Part shown: in pieces, positions 26,329-31,697 of the stretch
Layout: each line of letters starts with the position of its first letter
Position numbering within the stretch: the stretch's first letter is position 1
NCBI GenBank assembly: GCA_021799495.1
Contig: JAJZAI010000021.1
Span: 1 to 55,187 of the forward strand
Reading direction: 5' to 3'
DNA from: Deltaproteobacteria bacterium
Lineage (GTDB): Bacteria > Desulfobacterota > Binatia > Binatales > Binataceae
DNA length: 55,187 nt
Notes under the pieces: model-generated
Seen by the model: the letters and a program-made list of their open reading frames with translations, nothing else
Told to the model about the DNA's origin: nothing
Databases searched by the model: none
Program-made: the position numbers and the translations under genes

Positions 26329-26742
26329 CTATGCCGGATATCCCGGCGCACGCGGATTCGCCGTCCGCGCAATCGCCGAAACGTTCGAGTTCAACTTGAT
26401 ATCCATCCGCGGCGAATGACCCCTCACGTGGACGCGATAGTACTCGCCCGGGCCCGAAGCGCTGAGGGCGCGCACACGCATAAAATATTTTCCGGGCTGG
26501 ACGCCCTTAATCTCATAACGGCCGTGGAGATCGGTTACCGCACTCCCCCAGTTCTCGCCAAACCAGTCGGTAAGCGAAATCTTGATTCCCGGAACCGGCT
26601 GGCCAAGCGGATCCAAAACGACCCCGCTGACCACATTGACCTGCGACGCGGGCACGTTGGCGTCTGTGCGCGCTTCGGACACAAGGATAAGCGCGAAGGA
26701 AAAAAAGACGGCATAGGCAAGAAAAATTGTGGAGGGTTTCAT
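26329..26742 (-). CDS. Secreted carboxypeptidase-regulatory-like protein
   Basis: A 137-residue exported protein. After a signal peptide (MKPSTIFLAYAVFFSFALILVSEA) the mature part is a single Ig-like beta-sandwich of the carboxypeptidase regulatory-like type: VSGVVLDPLGQPVPGIKISL, SAVTDLHGRYEIKGVQPGKYFMRVRAL. The tail is short and Asn/Ala-rich. Such domains commonly mediate extracellular binding and have no catalytic role. Start chosen at the ATG at 26742 after GGAG-ATTAC, at the beginning of the signal peptide. The protein shares the G-SAVTD-x2-G-x-Y-x-I strand with the secreted protein at 47326. Confidence 0.75.
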   Translation of the reverse strand: MKPSTIFLAYAVFFSFALILVSEARTDANVPASQVNVVSGVVLDPLGQPVPGIKISLTDWFGENWGSAVTDLHGRYEIKGVQPGKYFMRVRALSASGPGEYYRVHVRGHSPRMDIKLNSNVSAIARTANPRAPGYPA

Positions 26743-26919
26743 GTAATCTCCAGAATTCATTTGACGAGATCGCGAAGCAAGCGGCGTTCCTGACAGGCTC
26801 CTGTCTATGATGTACTTTAATATTCACAAACATTCAAAGACAAACACGCGGCATACATCGTGGTGACGGCGACAAATTTTGGTCGATTTGATCGATCGCC
26901 CAACCCGGCGCGCGCTTCG

Positions 26920-29202
26920 TCAGATCAGGCCGATACCGCCCTTGCGCATCAGCCGAACGCCAATCTTGCGCAAAAATCCCGTCGGCAGTTCCGCTCCGAT
27001 CATCGCGAAGATGACGTCGTTATCAAGCTCAATTGGACCTGTGGCTTCGGCCTCTGCGGAGCCGCCCGCAGCCGCGCTTTTGACTCGTTCGAGCACGACT
27101 TTTCCCGGCAAAATCCGTTTGAGCGCGGTCGCGGGTAAAACGGTGACAAGGCCCGCGCGCTGCAAATCGCTGACTTTTTCCGCGTTATCGCGCGATACGT
27201 TGGTCAGCACCGCTGAGCGATACGAATAAACCACATGATTGCCCAATTCCGGCCGGGCCAGCGCCTGCACCACCTCGGAACCGGAATTGCCGCCGCCCAC
27301 CACAAGAATCCGACGCTGATGAAATTCATCAGCGTCGATAAGATTGTAAAAAACCCGCTCCGGCTCTTCGCCAGTCAGTCCCAGATGGCGCGGATTGCCG
27401 CGCACGCCGATCGCAAGGACGACGGTGCGAGCGCGATAGACGTTGCCACGTTCCGTGCGGACAAAGAAACGCTCGCCGCTGGCCGCGATATCGACAACCT
27501 CTTCGCGGTCCATTATCACCAGGTTCAATTCCGCGATGATCCGTTCCCATTCCTGGATCAGGCGCTCGCGCGAATTGTCGCCCTCAAGAAAAAACGAGCC
27601 ATATTCCGCGATATCGATCGGCGTCGCCTGCACGAATTTGGCGCGCGGGTAGGCGCGCAACGTGCTCGCCGGCGTCATCCGTTCCAGCGTGACGTAATTC
27701 AGTCCCATGCTTGCCGCAGTGGCGGTTGCGCCAAGGCCCGCGGGACCACATCCGACAATCAAAACATCGTATAGATTGGGATCGGTCGAACGCGGCATCC
27801 GGCGCAATTCCGCCGCAATCGCTTCAATCACCTGACGGCCCGACCGCATCGCCAGATTGATCGAAGCGGTGCCGGCCGCCTCGCCGATAACGTAGAGACG
27901 CCGCACGCTGGTCTGGAAGGTATCGTCGAGCGCCGGCGTCTCGCGCGTGCGCTGCGGCGCCACGCCGGCGATCACGTCCGGCTCGACCGGCGCCTGCGGC
28001 AATATCATGACCAATCCAAAGACACAGATCGCGGCGACGGCGAGGCCAACCAGGCCGATCGGCCATGGACGAACCGTAATCGTCGGGGCGGCCAAAGGCG
28101 CCCGCACATGGCCATGCGCGCTTAAAACCGGCAGTTGAATCGTCCAGGCCAAGCGTTTTTCGGCGCCGGACAATCGCGTCAGCGCGGGCCTGATGAAATC
28201 GTTGGACGGTACGGGACCGTGAGTGTGAAAAAGATGGCAGTCCGAGCAGGCTGTCACATGCTTGACGATGGCGCCGCCAGCGGCGCCATCGTCAGCCGCG
28301 AATGCGACCGCGCCTGACCCGATAAGTCTGCCGGCGGCAACTTCTGGCGCGGCGCCCTGATGCGCATGGCATTTGAAGCACTGTTCGATCTTTAGCGAAG
28401 CCGCGTCATCCGGCGCGACGCTCGACGCCATCGCGAAATGACATTCCGCGCATGGCGTGCGCAGATGGCGGGGCGAATGCGTGAAGACCGCATTGATGTG
28501 CAGCACCCGCGACGTGTATGCGAGCGATTCCGGCGACGTTCCAGCCGACGCGGGCAATTGCAGGAACGAATCCTGCGGCGCGACATGGCATCCGGCGCCA
28601 GCGCATCCGCTCCATTTGAAACTCATCTTTTCCGCGCCGGGCGGTTTGACCGGCGCGACCGCATGGCACGCTTCGCATCGAAAGCCGCCCGGAATCGCCG
28701 GATAATGCGACTCGATCAGCAGCTTGTGCTCGTGATGATTGAAAGGCTTGCGAAACGTGTAGCTGGCCGCCTCGTGCCGCTCCATGAACGCCGCCATGTG
28801 CTCCTGCACGCCGGCTATCGACGGATGTTTGTGACACCATTGGCAGGCGAAAGTCGCCGTCGCTTCGAGATCGACGCGCGCGCCCTGATGCTCGCGATGG
28901 CAACTGCGGCAGGTTAACTCGCTGTCGGGCGTGACGAACAGGGTCCGTCCCGCAACCAGGCCGTCGCTAGCCGAGGTCACGTCGAGCCCGCCGTGCGGGT
29001 TCATGTCCTCGATCGATCCGTGGCAGGCGATACATCGTTGGTTTTGCACGCCGCGCCAAGGCGCATGGCACGCCGCGCATCCGCCCGAAAGACGCTGATG
29101 GGCGGCGAGCAGCGGACCGGGTTCGTAGCTGCGATGCGTCGCGAGCATCGCGCCGACGAAGGCGATGACGATCGCGCCGGCGATAAAGGCCGCCCGCCTC
29201 AC
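26920..29202 (-). CDS. Nine-heme cytochrome c fused to FAD/NAD(P) oxidoreductase
   Basis: A 760-residue fusion. A membrane anchor (residues 4-22) precedes a region with eight CXXCH heme sites (starting at 42, 57, 98, 120, 176, 251, 275 and 319) and one CX4CH site (200-206), giving nine probable hemes, rich in extra His for axial ligation. A second helix follows (about 382-401). The segment TFQTSVRRLYVIGEAAGT (about 429-445) resembles the FAD-tail motif that normally closes a thioredoxin-reductase-like domain. The FAD site is GCGPAG (484-489) and the NAD(P) site GGGNSG (636-641). No CxxC redox pair is present, so it is not a disulfide reductase. Start: GTG at 29202 overlaps the upstream stop (GTGA). 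Hemes would be periplasmic, the flavin domain cytoplasmic. Confidence 0.85.
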   Translation of the reverse strand: MRRAAFIAGAIVIAFVGAMLATHRSYEPGPLLAAHQRLSGGCAACHAPWRGVQNQRCIACHGSIEDMNPHGGLDVTSASDGLVAGRTLFVTPDSELTCRSCHREHQGARVDLEATATFACQWCHKHPSIAGVQEHMAAFMERHEAASYTFRKPFNHHEHKLLIESHYPAIPGGFRCEACHAVAPVKPPGAEKMSFKWSGCAGAGCHVAPQDSFLQLPASAGTSPESLAYTSRVLHINAVFTHSPRHLRTPCAECHFAMASSVAPDDAASLKIEQCFKCHAHQGAAPEVAAGRLIGSGAVAFAADDGAAGGAIVKHVTACSDCHLFHTHGPVPSNDFIRPALTRLSGAEKRLAWTIQLPVLSAHGHVRAPLAAPTITVRPWPIGLVGLAVAAICVFGLVMILPQAPVEPDVIAGVAPQRTRETPALDDTFQTSVRRLYVIGEAAGTASINLAMRSGRQVIEAIAAELRRMPRSTDPNLYDVLIVGCGPAGLGATATAASMGLNYVTLERMTPASTLRAYPRAKFVQATPIDIAEYGSFFLEGDNSRERLIQEWERIIAELNLVIMDREEVVDIAASGERFFVRTERGNVYRARTVVLAIGVRGNPRHLGLTGEEPERVFYNLIDADEFHQRRILVVGGGNSGSEVVQALARPELGNHVVYSYRSAVLTNVSRDNAEKVSDLQRAGLVTVLPATALKRILPGKVVLERVKSAAAGGSAEAEATGPIELDNDVIFAMIGAELPTGFLRKIGVRLMRKGGIGLI

Positions 29203-30101
29203 GGCAGACCCACGTAATAAAGCGCGCCGGCGATATGAAAGACGACCGCGACGCCGAAAATGGCGACCAGCGCGATATGGAATACCAGCCAAGCCGCGCT
29301 CAGGCGCAAGTTGAAACGATTAAGCTCAAGCCGGATTTTGGTTGCGGCCAGATCGATCAGCCGCTCGAATAACTGCCGATCGCCGGACAAACCGGCCGCC
29401 GCGCGGCGGGCGTGGCCGCAAGCCGCGGCGGCGGGATCGCGGCCGGCCAGCGTCGCGAAAAACAATCGCGCCGGCGGTTGCGACCCGATCAGCAACGGCC
29501 GCACTTCCGCCAGATAAAGCCGCACCAACTGTTCGGAATGGCCGAGAATCGTCTCTTCCGCTTCGATGTAAATCTGATGGTACGCGGTTTCGACGTCTTC
29601 GAGGCGCACCTCGTAATCCGGCCGCTTGCGCATCGCCGGCGGCATCAGGTCATGGATCAATGTGCCGCATAGCCCGCTCCCCACGACCAGAAAGACCAGA
29701 ACGAAAATCAACCGTTCCAGCGGCGTCGCGGGACCGGCGTTGACATGCCACCAGAACGGCAGCAGCGCGGAAATTCCCAGCGTTATATGGATCGTGCGCC
29801 AGGTTTCAAGGCGATCGGCCGTGACCATCCGCCGCGCGATCGCGCGCGGCAGGCGCGCCGCCGCGCGCAGCCATCGCACTGACAACCAGAGCGATCGTTT
29901 GCGGGCGCTGTACATCGCCGCCAGCAAAAATACGGCGAGCGTGAGCAGGCCCGTGCGGTACGAGCCAAGCCGCGGCCCGACGCCGGAAGTCAAGGCATGA
30001 ACCGCCGCGACCGCCGCGGCGCAAATTGCCGCCCACAAGGTCACCGACGCAACAGGAGCGGTATGACGCCGATCAGCGGCCTCGCCTATTCGCTCGCCCA
30101 C
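29199..30101 (-). CDS. Diheme cytochrome b-like membrane protein
   Basis: About 300 residues with five predicted helices (near 18-36, 48-66, 104-121, 129-150, 266-292). Helix three holds His105 and His119; helix five holds His275 and His289. Two helices with His pairs 14 residues apart are the arrangement that holds two b hemes in cytochrome b proteins. A soluble loop of about 110 residues (150-262) lies between the last two helices. I expect it to exchange electrons between the quinone pool and partners on either side. It is translationally coupled to the heme/flavin fusion (GTGA overlap) and follows the iron-sulfur gene by 21 bases. The GTG at 30101 is the longest start; a later GTG is possible. 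Confidence 0.75.
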   Translation of the reverse strand: MGERIGEAADRRHTAPVASVTLWAAICAAAVAAVHALTSGVGPRLGSYRTGLLTLAVFLLAAMYSARKRSLWLSVRWLRAAARLPRAIARRMVTADRLETWRTIHITLGISALLPFWWHVNAGPATPLERLIFVLVFLVVGSGLCGTLIHDLMPPAMRKRPDYEVRLEDVETAYHQIYIEAEETILGHSEQLVRLYLAEVRPLLIGSQPPARLFFATLAGRDPAAAACGHARRAAAGLSGDRQLFERLIDLAATKIRLELNRFNLRLSAAWLVFHIALVAIFGVAVVFHIAGALYYVGLP

Positions 30102-30122: not shown

Positions 30123-31697
30123 CTAATCGCTGCCGCCGCGCGCCTTGCGCACGCGCGACCCTTCGCTGATGGCGCCGGTCTCCTCGAAGAGTTTCGCCGG
30201 GTCGATCCTGATCGCCGCGCCCGTCGGACAATTATGCACGCAACCCATGAAGGGCAGGCCGTCGCAGAGATCGCACTTGATCGGAAACGCCGGCGGCGTA
30301 TGTTCGCGAACGTCCGCGAGCGGCGCCGGCTTGCGCCTGGAGCCGCCGTCGCGCTCCGCGCCGAACAGTCGCGCCCAGAGTCCCGGCTCGCCGACATCGT
30401 GCGCCGCGGCGGGAAACGGACGGAAGAAATTGGCGTCGTTCATGATGCGTGATTTGCGCGCCTGCGCGCGATCGAACGTCGGCGCGTCGATCATCGCGAT
30501 ATTGTCGTAAGGGCACGCGATCGCGCAATTGCCGCAGCCGATGCACATCTCGTACTGGAAATAGATCTCGCCTTCGGGCCGCCGCTTGATCGCGCCGGTC
30601 GGGCAACTGTTCATGCATTTGGGATCGTCGCAATGGCGGCAGGCGCTCGGCACCAGATAGTGGCCAAGCTTGATGCCGTTGCGAATCAGGCGGCTGCGGC
30701 CGTGCAGCGTCTCGCAGGCCTTGACGCAGTTGTCGCAATTGATGCACAGGTCGAGGTCCATCACCAGCAGCGCGTCGGCCTGAATCACGCCAAGCTGGCC
30801 GCTGCGCTCGAGCAGCTCCGAAATCTCGGGCGTGACGTTGCGCTCCTGCTCGCGGCGGCGCTCGATCGCCCTGCGCGCGCTCTCTTCGACCTGCGGAAAG
30901 CGCCGGCAGAGGCCGAGGAAGTCCTCGCGGCTGATCTTGATCAGTTCGCATTTGCCGGCGGTGAGAACGCTGGCCCAGCGCACGCCCGTCTCGAACAGCG
31001 CCATCTCGCCGAAATATTCGCCCGCGCGCAGATAGGCGAGCACGCGATGGCTGCCGTCCTCGCGCGCGCGCGCCACCTGCACGAAGCCGTCGCGCACGAG
31101 ATAGAGCGCGTCGCCCGGTTCGCCCTGCGTCACAATCGGGATGCCGCGCAGGTCGTAGCGCAGGATTTCGCATTTCTCCGCGAGTTCGTTGATGCTCGCG
31201 AGCGGCACGCCGCGGAACAACTCGTTCTCGATCGCCGCGATTCGCACGGCGCGATCGCGATAGCGCCGCGCCAGCGCCTCGCGCGCGTATTGATTGATCT
31301 CGACGTGCTTCAGGGCGTGGCGCGGAATGTAGAAAATCTCCACGTCCTCGCGCGCGACCACGTCGACCGTCCGCGGCAGGCCTCCGATCGCGCCGAGTTC
31401 GCCGAACTGGTTGCCGGCTTTGAGCGTCGCGACGAAATGCGCCTCTTCGGGGCCGCTGTCGTCGCGCAAATCGACGCTGCCGGCCAGGATGCAGCACAGG
31501 TCGAGTTCGTATTCGCCCTTGCGGCAGATTATCTCGCCGGCCTTGAACGTCCGCGTCCGCATCGCGGGATCCTGTTCATACGCCTTCAGGAACGTGTCGC
31601 GTTGTTCGTCGCTGAAACGGCTGAAAATATCGAGCGCCGTCAGCCGCCGCCACAGCAGCCACGGCGGAACGCGCTCGGTCGCGGGATCGTTCGCCAC
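30123..31697 (-). CDS. Dual cyclic-nucleotide-binding / 4x[4Fe-4S] ferredoxin protein
   Basis: A 524-residue soluble protein. Two cNMP-binding domains come first: domain one about 22-140 with FGELGAIGGLPRTVDV (98-113), domain two about 158-275 with FGEMALFETGVRWAS (229-243), each keeping the phosphate-binding Arg. The C-terminal half has 16 Cys in four groups: 318/321/324/328, 353/356/361/365, 385/388/391/395 and 475/478/486/490, the pattern of four-cluster electron-transfer subunits such as HybA or DmsB. It has no DNA-binding helix-turn-helix, so it is not a CRP-type regulator. It heads a three-gene operon. Likely role: an electron carrier gated or tuned by a nucleotide signal; gating is inference. 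Confidence 0.85.
   Translation of the reverse strand: MANDPATERVPPWLLWRRLTALDIFSRFSDEQRDTFLKAYEQDPAMRTRTFKAGEIICRKGEYELDLCCILAGSVDLRDDSGPEEAHFVATLKAGNQFGELGAIGGLPRTVDVVAREDVEIFYIPRHALKHVEINQYAREALARRYRDRAVRIAAIENELFRGVPLASINELAEKCEILRYDLRGIPIVTQGEPGDALYLVRDGFVQVARAREDGSHRVLAYLRAGEYFGEMALFETGVRWASVLTAGKCELIKISREDFLGLCRRFPQVEESARRAIERRREQERNVTPEISELLERSGQLGVIQADALLVMDLDLCINCDNCVKACETLHGRSRLIRNGIKLGHYLVPSACRHCDDPKCMNSCPTGAIKRRPEGEIYFQYEMCIGCGNCAIACPYDNIAMIDAPTFDRAQARKSRIMNDANFFRPFPAAAHDVGEPGLWARLFGAERDGGSRRKPAPLADVREHTPPAFPIKCDLCDGLPFMGCVHNCPTGAAIRIDPAKLFEETGAISEGSRVRKARGGSD

Follow-up and report, generated by a model that had tools for sequence, protein, structure and literature searches.

NADPH oxidases and ferric reductases combine cytoplasmic NAD(P)H (reduced nicotinamide adenine dinucleotide, with or without the 2'-phosphate) and flavin adenine dinucleotide (FAD) with two stacked b hemes and an acceptor on the outside. 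In inner-membrane multiheme quinol oxidases (CymA, NrfH and the clusters of cytochrome b and multiheme cytochrome c of iron reducers), a periplasmic multiheme c cytochrome works with a membrane anchor or a b-type partner; to our knowledge, the heme polypeptide has no cytoplasmic FAD/NAD(P) domain in any of these systems. Transfer from NAD(P)H to the outside has also been proposed for Nqr/Rnf-like complexes, alongside the four-His membrane cytochromes of the DUF4405, PepSY and MsrQ groups (part of PMC11334425). Here we analyzed a 55,187-nucleotide stretch of DNA of an uncultured bacterium, the window (contig JAJZAI010000021.1 of assembly GCA_021799495.1), in which a gene on the minus strand (26920 to 29202) fuses nine c-type heme sites to a predicted membrane helix and a circularly permuted flavin domain. 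Together with two upstream genes, encoding a predicted cytochrome b (here called CYB) and a ferredoxin with cyclic-nucleotide-binding domains (cNMP-ferredoxin), it forms a conserved trio at 31697-26920. With a probability of roughly one-half, we propose that the trio makes up one inner-membrane complex that would pass electrons along NAD(P)H-FAD-[4Fe-4S]-heme b-heme c, most likely from the cytoplasm to the periplasm.

The flavin domain of the fusion shares its FAD and NAD(P) fold with thioredoxin reductase-like (TrxR-like) ferredoxin/flavodoxin-NADP reductases (FNRs) and with YpdA/Bdr, its best sequence and fold matches. TrxR-like FNRs also lack a CxxC, and they carry an HRRxxxR-type NADPH motif (both from part of PMC8564101). 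In contrast to these enzymes, the fusion is permuted, carries nine c-heme sites and a membrane helix, and has a degraded 2'-phosphate Arg motif. It differs from NADPH oxidases and ferric reductases in its flavin fold, in the prediction of the b hemes on a separate protein, and in the addition of a ferredoxin part and nine c-heme sites. Whereas Nqr/Rnf-like complexes use covalent flavin mononucleotide (FMN) proteins on the outside, the trio has multiheme c, and Pfam revealed no NqrB/RnfD-like membrane subunit or FMN-carrying subunit among its three proteins. Matches of the fusion to the NrfH and DmsE-type models (expectation value [E], 2.3e-4 and 5.1e-4) were under the cut-offs. DmsB-type four-cluster ferredoxin subunits have the same kind of 16-Cys arrangement as cNMP-ferredoxin, and DmsB and DsrO were the top matches of its ferredoxin part, under the cut-offs; unlike them, cNMP-ferredoxin has N-terminal tandem cyclic-nucleotide domains, and the trio has no molybdenum catalytic subunit. 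TrxR-like FNRs, NAD(P)H-to-outside complexes, four-His cytochromes and b-plus-multiheme-c systems have all been described or proposed, and each fold is familiar; the combination and the permuted order appear to be undescribed. Among the papers listed by searches of one open-access library, none described the permuted TrxR-like domain or the trio, and the portions of PMC10553843 and PMC9012536 covered here held nothing resembling either.

Architecture and conservation of the fusion protein

Translation of the fusion gene gave a single 760-amino-acid frame. The features of the gene and of its two partners are as follows.

26920..29202, minus strand: fusion gene encoding, in order, a signal/anchor, nine c-type heme sites, a predicted membrane helix and a circularly permuted FAD/NAD(P) domain; 760 amino acids, GTG start, stop at 26920-26922
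29137..29193, minus strand: N-terminal hydrophobic signal/anchor, residues 4-22; hydropathy 2.33, helix 2-21 in a low-confidence model
28234..29079, minus strand: nine heme-attachment sites, residues 42-323; all kept in 14 of 14 aligned rows (13 distinct)
28585..28605, minus strand: CX4CH site, residues 200-206; CXXCH instead in some relatives
28003..28059, minus strand: second hydrophobic helix, residues 382-400; hydropathy 2.79, helix 381-398 in a low-confidence model
27805..27945, minus strand: C-terminal tail of the thioredoxin-reductase-like fold, moved ahead of the FAD motif, residues 420-466; matches canonical-order profile positions 272-319
26947..27774, minus strand: FAD and NAD(P) core, residues 477-752; matches canonical-order profile positions 6-271, and PF13738
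27736..27753, minus strand: FAD glycine motif GCGPAG, residues 484-489; sequence motif
27280..27297, minus strand: NAD(P) glycine motif GGGNSG, residues 636-641; sequence motif
29199..30101, minus strand: CYB, a membrane protein predicted to be a di-heme cytochrome b (H105, H119, H275, H289), whose end overlaps the fusion start codon; these four His are invariant across all 16 aligned proteins
30123..31697, minus strand: cNMP-ferredoxin protein, combining a pair of cyclic-nucleotide-binding domains with a 16-Cys ferredoxin part; from Pfam, profile and alignment

An earlier note on this DNA had described nine heme sites, FAD and NAD(P) motifs without a CxxC, and a helix near residues 382-401. 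All of this agrees with our translation and motif positions. The CXXCH sites start at residues 42, 57, 98, 120, 176, 251, 275 and 319, and the CX4CH site at 200; the only Cys past residue 410 is C485, hence there is no CxxC. Hydropathy over 19 residues peaked at the two segments listed above, the second of which is the predicted membrane helix, and reached at most 1.40 elsewhere. Pfam identified Pyr_redox_3 (PF13738; E, 3.1e-28) at residues 481-751, PF07992 (E, 3.4e-20) and Cytochrom_c3_2 (E, 1.8e-8). An Rfam scan of the window gave no match at the gathering score. The frame is intact across independent genomes, which upholds the fusion described in the earlier note and rules out an assembly or frame error as its source.

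We then compared the heme parts of the fusion in 14 aligned rows, which represent 13 distinct sequences because L030 and L109 are one contig; the partial loci of G001, G005 and G011 were left out of these counts. All nine heme sites were kept in every row. Locus L038, whose GCGPSG led to its omission from the heme alignment by the motif filter, also has eight CXXCH sites and one CX4CH site. The CX4CH column reads CXXCH in 5 of the 14 rows (4 of the 13 distinct), which argues that the CX4CH site binds heme. Eleven additional His residues beyond the nine sites are invariant in all 14 rows (13 distinct), enough for them to serve as putative distal heme ligands. Moreover, the source genome has three matches above the cut-off to Cytochrom_C_asm (c-heme maturation). 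With its conserved sites located behind an N-terminal hydrophobic segment, in a domain predicted to be exported, this part of the protein is assigned to the multiheme c-type cytochromes.

Some match to the fusion, weak matches included, was present in 27 of 38 genomes (the window's own and 37 relatives). All six other genomes of the genus carry the fusion, although contig ends truncate or divide it in two of them (G001 and G005). In a survey of the class (148 genomes), 21 genomes had a tail-first match, 16 in the window's family and 5 in other families (G027, G049, G082, G088 and G093), and four further genomes matched the FAD-NAD core only. The distribution within the family is patchy, with at least 20 genomes lacking a match at an E of 1e-30. 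The tail-first form was present in 10 of 297 genomes drawn from the phylum, and in one of these it was divided between two contigs.

The flavin domain is circularly permuted

A profile built from 16 relatives with the canonical order matched the native flavin domain twice, in the inverted order expected of a circular permutation: profile positions 272-319 at residues 420-466, followed by positions 6-271 at residues 477-752. A rotated copy of the domain matched the profile in one piece with 170.4 bits, compared to 152.0 bits when the moved tail was shuffled. Loci were first labeled permuted or canonical by hand, according to how their matches covered A1, in whose rows the tail comes first, and the labels were then tested against the profile. 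The tail-first order was found in all 28 loci labeled permuted, including a Bacteroidota (Emticicia) plasmid. Conversely, 23 of the 24 canonical-labeled rows matched the profile in one piece; 16 of the 24 had served to build the profile, and among the 8 independent rows 7 gave a one-piece match and the other, L021, matched in two pieces in canonical order. The permuted order claimed by the earlier note is therefore borne out by the two-piece match and recurs in distant relatives, and at the level of sequence we consider the permutation confirmed.

The earlier note had also raised the question of whether residues 425-460 complete the FAD domain. The structure prediction of the flavin domain yielded a YpdA-like core alignment and did not decide the packing of these residues. 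The best Foldseek match of the model was YpdA (7a76; E, 7.3e-18). VIA gave a Z of 17.1 to 7a7b, yet with a root mean square deviation (rmsd) of 14.2 over 254 residues and a mean predicted local distance difference test score (pLDDT) of 64.0 for the model. Residues of about 70-350 of the model aligned with YpdA residues 1-268, leaving the first 70 over, at listed rmsd values of 9.3-16.5 Å. Because the aligners keep the sequence order, the fold comparison does not settle the placement of the tail; it is compatible with the permutation. Together, these results assign the domain to the TrxR-like FNR/YpdA superfamily as a predicted FAD and NAD(P) Rossmann pair in non-canonical order.

A tree of 52 flavin cores required four changes of the order label, and its starred branches force at least two. 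The canonical-order proteins L064 (G099) and L065 (G026), which combine a thioredoxin-reductase-like (TR) domain with cNMP and Fer4 parts, grouped with the permuted L060 with support of 99/95. A single origin of the permuted order was not shown by this tree, in which branches are long, and there may have been a second permutation or a reversal to the canonical order. In G026, one 833-amino-acid frame (L034:3088-5586) holds a canonical-order TR, two cNMP domains and Fer4; it is the counterpart of the cNMP-ferredoxin and flavin parts of the window, joined without the permutation. Canonical-order TR-like domains followed by FHA domain(s) and a 2Fe-2S-type end were seen in L016 (G028) and L069 (G082), with Fer2 above the cut-off in L016 and just below it in L069; L017 (G035) is similar by eye only.

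CYB and cNMP-ferredoxin are conserved partners of the fusion

The order cNMP-ferredoxin, CYB (after a short gap) and fusion (overlapping CYB) gives an operon-like block. At each of the 14 distinct intact loci examined (the window, L026, L029, L030, L035-L042, L107 and L108), the three genes are adjacent, on one strand and in this order; the cNMP-ferredoxin gene of L107 is cut by the end of the examined stretch. Beyond the genus the trio persists and the flanking genes are mostly not shared; therefore, the conserved unit is the trio.

The two His pairs of CYB, H105/H119 and H275/H289, are each spaced by 14 residues and are invariant in all 16 aligned CYB-like proteins. Five distant proteins in this alignment were chosen as neighbors or fusion partners and four of them score weakly, so that the alignment leans on the motif. 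We predict that CYB is a di-heme membrane cytochrome b, with the two His pairs on membrane helices. CYB of the window did not match DUF4405 (PF14358), and L106 (E, 0.037) and L032 (E, 6.8e-4) matched it under the cut-off.

In the cNMP-ferredoxin protein, PF00027 matched two stretches (E, 1.1e-37), which jointly match protein kinase A (PKA) regulatory subunits over residues 45-264. Fifteen of the 16 cluster Cys of the ferredoxin part are kept in all 14 rows and the remaining one in 13, while the Arg of the GE...R cassette in the first nucleotide domain is kept in 13 of 14. No DNA-binding domain was matched by Pfam in this protein, and we rejected a role as a transcription factor on that ground. 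In G059, two tandem cNMP-ferredoxin frames are located upstream of CYB and the fusion (L108:7801-10998).

Relatives link the same parts differently

In G027, from another family of the class, cNMP-ferredoxin, a CYB-like protein (L106) and an FHA-heme-flavin protein are encoded in a row. The last of these (L033:3-3977) is one polypeptide containing three FHA domains, ten heme sites and the permuted flavin domain, plus a weak Fer4 part that is under the Pfam cut-offs; one extra CXXCH within the ferredoxin part was not counted as a heme site. A single protein in L032 combines Fer4, the permuted flavin domain and a weakly CYB-like end with a cNMP match that is weak and under the cut-off (E, 0.0058). 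In G222, G187 and a Pseudoalteromonas plasmid, the fusion partner of the permuted domain is instead a membrane protein that has Fer4-type motifs.

Stand-alone permuted-flavin proteins, in open frames of about 440-550 amino acids, were found at the eight such loci examined (L096-L099, L102-L104 and L110). A multiheme cytochrome is encoded within about 4 kb of the flavin gene at seven of them, and the largest cytochrome per locus has 16-40 CXXCH sites, some frames being cut by ends. A CYB-like neighbor is present at four of the eight, in L097, L098 and L099 by alignment and in L110 by eye, from two His pairs. All four stand-alone proteins scanned (L096, L097, L102 and L110) have Fer4 above the cut-off, and in several stand-alone proteins one cluster Cys is replaced, as read from the letters. 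Plasmid pEMTOL02 of Emticicia oligotrophica DSM 17448 encodes CcsA, a 281-amino-acid CYB-like protein and the 440-amino-acid permuted protein WP_015031197, alongside cytochromes with 23 and 40 CXXCH. The earlier note had held that separate heme and flavin genes in relatives, together with an assembly or frame error here, would count against the fusion. Such genes do exist in distant relatives, where they are mostly neighbors; this does not refute the link between the heme and flavin parts, and their proximity supports it.

A proposed electron path and its alternatives

According to our model, the permuted flavin domain would exchange hydride with NAD(P)H at the FAD in the cytoplasm and, acting like a TrxR-type FNR, would convert electron pairs into single electrons. 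The four [4Fe-4S] clusters of cNMP-ferredoxin would relay these to CYB; we propose transfer from FAD to cNMP-ferredoxin because the fusion is without the Fer4 part that many relatives have beside the flavin domain. The two b hemes of CYB would then bridge the membrane and pass electrons on to the nine periplasmic c hemes of the fusion, and the single helix joining its cytoplasmic flavin and periplasmic heme domains would keep both ends of the wire in one complex. The two cyclic-nucleotide-binding domains would probably gate flow or assembly. Flow would most likely run from the cytoplasm to the periplasm, disposing of reductant to periplasmic or outer acceptors. We infer the cofactor content, sidedness, assembly, direction and nucleotide gating of this complex; flavin inside and hemes outside are assumed because NAD(P)H is cytoplasmic and c-type hemes become attached on the other side of the membrane. 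The earlier note had let electrons cross the membrane within a single protein. The fusion on which that idea was built is real, but the membrane step is better assigned to CYB with cNMP-ferredoxin: passage through the fusion protein alone is unlikely, since helix 382-400 has no visible heme ligand and CYB is present at every intact locus examined.

Several observations weigh against this model. Helix 382-400 has an Arg before it and no charge close after it, which lends no support to the assumed sidedness; in the Emticicia stand-alone protein and in G027, as read from the letters, Lys/Arg lie just after the helix, as that sidedness expects. The label cytochrome b for CYB rests on the His pattern, because no Pfam model matched CYB at the cut-off and its profile gave only chance matches among solved structures, with no solved cytochrome b. 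Four of the distant CYB-like proteins match the CYB profile weakly (E, 1.6e-4, 0.0035, 0.012 and 5), and only that of G027 matches strongly (1e-18). In 4 of 14 rows, the second nucleotide domain has lost its phosphate-binding Arg or carries it at a shifted position. The NADPH 2'-phosphate motif (HRRxxxR type) is degraded in the fusion clade and reads SYRSAVLTN in the fusion, with the first Arg kept and the last replaced by N; because of this loss, NADH would be as likely a cofactor as NADPH. Structural models were weak, with a mean pLDDT of 43.8 for the full-length fusion and, for the flavin domain, a predicted template modeling score (pTM) of 0.52 beside the pLDDT given above. On either side of the trio in the window there is no obvious gene for an electron donor or acceptor. 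Finally, the stand-alone locus L104, near a contig end, has no multiheme neighbor, and in L100, L101 and L111, where another kind of membrane protein contains the permuted domain, no adjacent multiheme gene was seen.

Among the alternatives, reverse flow comes closest to the proposed outward path. Periplasmic donors would reduce the hemes, and electrons would run inward to NAD(P)+ or a cytoplasmic ferredoxin, driven by a favorable donor or by the membrane potential. Multiheme modules with b cytochromes run both ways in known systems, and the anatomy of the hemes, CYB and ferredoxin suits either direction. However, inspection of the genes flanking the trio in the window, which were not scanned against Pfam, showed no periplasmic dehydrogenase, and stand-alone relatives lie near very large multiheme cytochromes, which are more usual for outward transfer, as are the annotated outer-membrane beta-barrel near L110 and a porin match near L098, weak and under the cut-off. 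We consider reverse flow unlikely. Slightly less likely again is a quinone-linked oxidoreductase, in which CYB would hold a quinone site and the flavin/ferredoxin and heme branches would each exchange electrons with the quinone pool and not with one another. Quinone binding is common among small di-heme b cytochromes, and MBNT15 clusters of cytochrome b and multiheme c have been proposed to draw from the quinone pool (part of PMC9386147); the physical fusion of flavin and heme parts suggests instead one path.

The trio might also be a redox sensor and not a respiratory wire, with cyclic-nucleotide or FHA domains reading the redox state of the periplasmic hemes and reporting it inside. Signal-type domains do recur with the flavin module, cNMP in the window and FHA in G027, and also with canonical-order domains, as in the TR-cNMP-Fer4 protein of G026 and the TR proteins with FHA and 2Fe-2S parts of L016 and L069. 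Nevertheless, 16 cluster Cys and nine hemes exceed the needs of a sensor and the trio gave no match to an output domain of the DNA-binding, cyclase or kinase kind, so that we regard a sensor as improbable. We would give least credence of all to a flavin domain that reduces a low-molecular-weight disulfide in the manner of YpdA/Bdr with electrons from the hemes. YpdA is the best profile and fold match, but at 103.2 bits against an NCBIfam cut-off of 339.9, and the sole Cys of the domain, C485, is the second residue of GCGPAG, three residues from the YpdA-type position. The YpdA-type Cys (Cys14) we take to be the fifth residue of GxGPC, which is Ala488 in the fusion. A simple disulfide reductase was rejected, as the flavin domain has no CxxC.

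If the outward complex that we favor is correct, its carriers could link NAD(P)H straight to cytochromes of the periplasm or outer surface, with no need for quinone-linked dehydrogenases; this step is usually credited to the quinone pool. The electron wire may also have a second-messenger switch. A wider reading, which we hold to be less likely than not, is that of a widespread and undescribed class of transmembrane NAD(P)H:multiheme-cytochrome complexes built from a permuted TrxR-like flavoprotein, a small di-heme cytochrome b and a ferredoxin, in which flow in this lineage would be switched by a cyclic nucleotide through tandem PKA-R-like domains on the ferredoxin, directly gating export without transcription. 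The flavin domain would also be a natural example of a very common flavoenzyme fold that has been circularly permuted and retained in distant bacteria. Emticicia oligotrophica DSM 17448 is a cultured carrier of the split form, which makes the model testable.

Other genes near the trio and its relatives

Downstream of the fusion, the window encodes a 143-amino-acid protein (26329-26760, minus strand) that has counterparts in 5 of the 16 related loci searched (L026, L028, L029, L041 and L042). None of the five is from another genus, and some loci are too short to reach it. Glycosyltransferase genes adjoin the permuted-flavin/membrane fusion in L111:5932-8286 (Pseudoalteromonas sp. Bsw20308 plasmid) and in L100. 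Ankyrin- and Sel1-repeat proteins are encoded near stand-alone permuted-flavin genes and large multiheme cytochromes in L097:3916-6024, L099:1226-5287 and L102:5086-6453, and one frame in L099 has both 26 CXXCH sites and ankyrin repeats.

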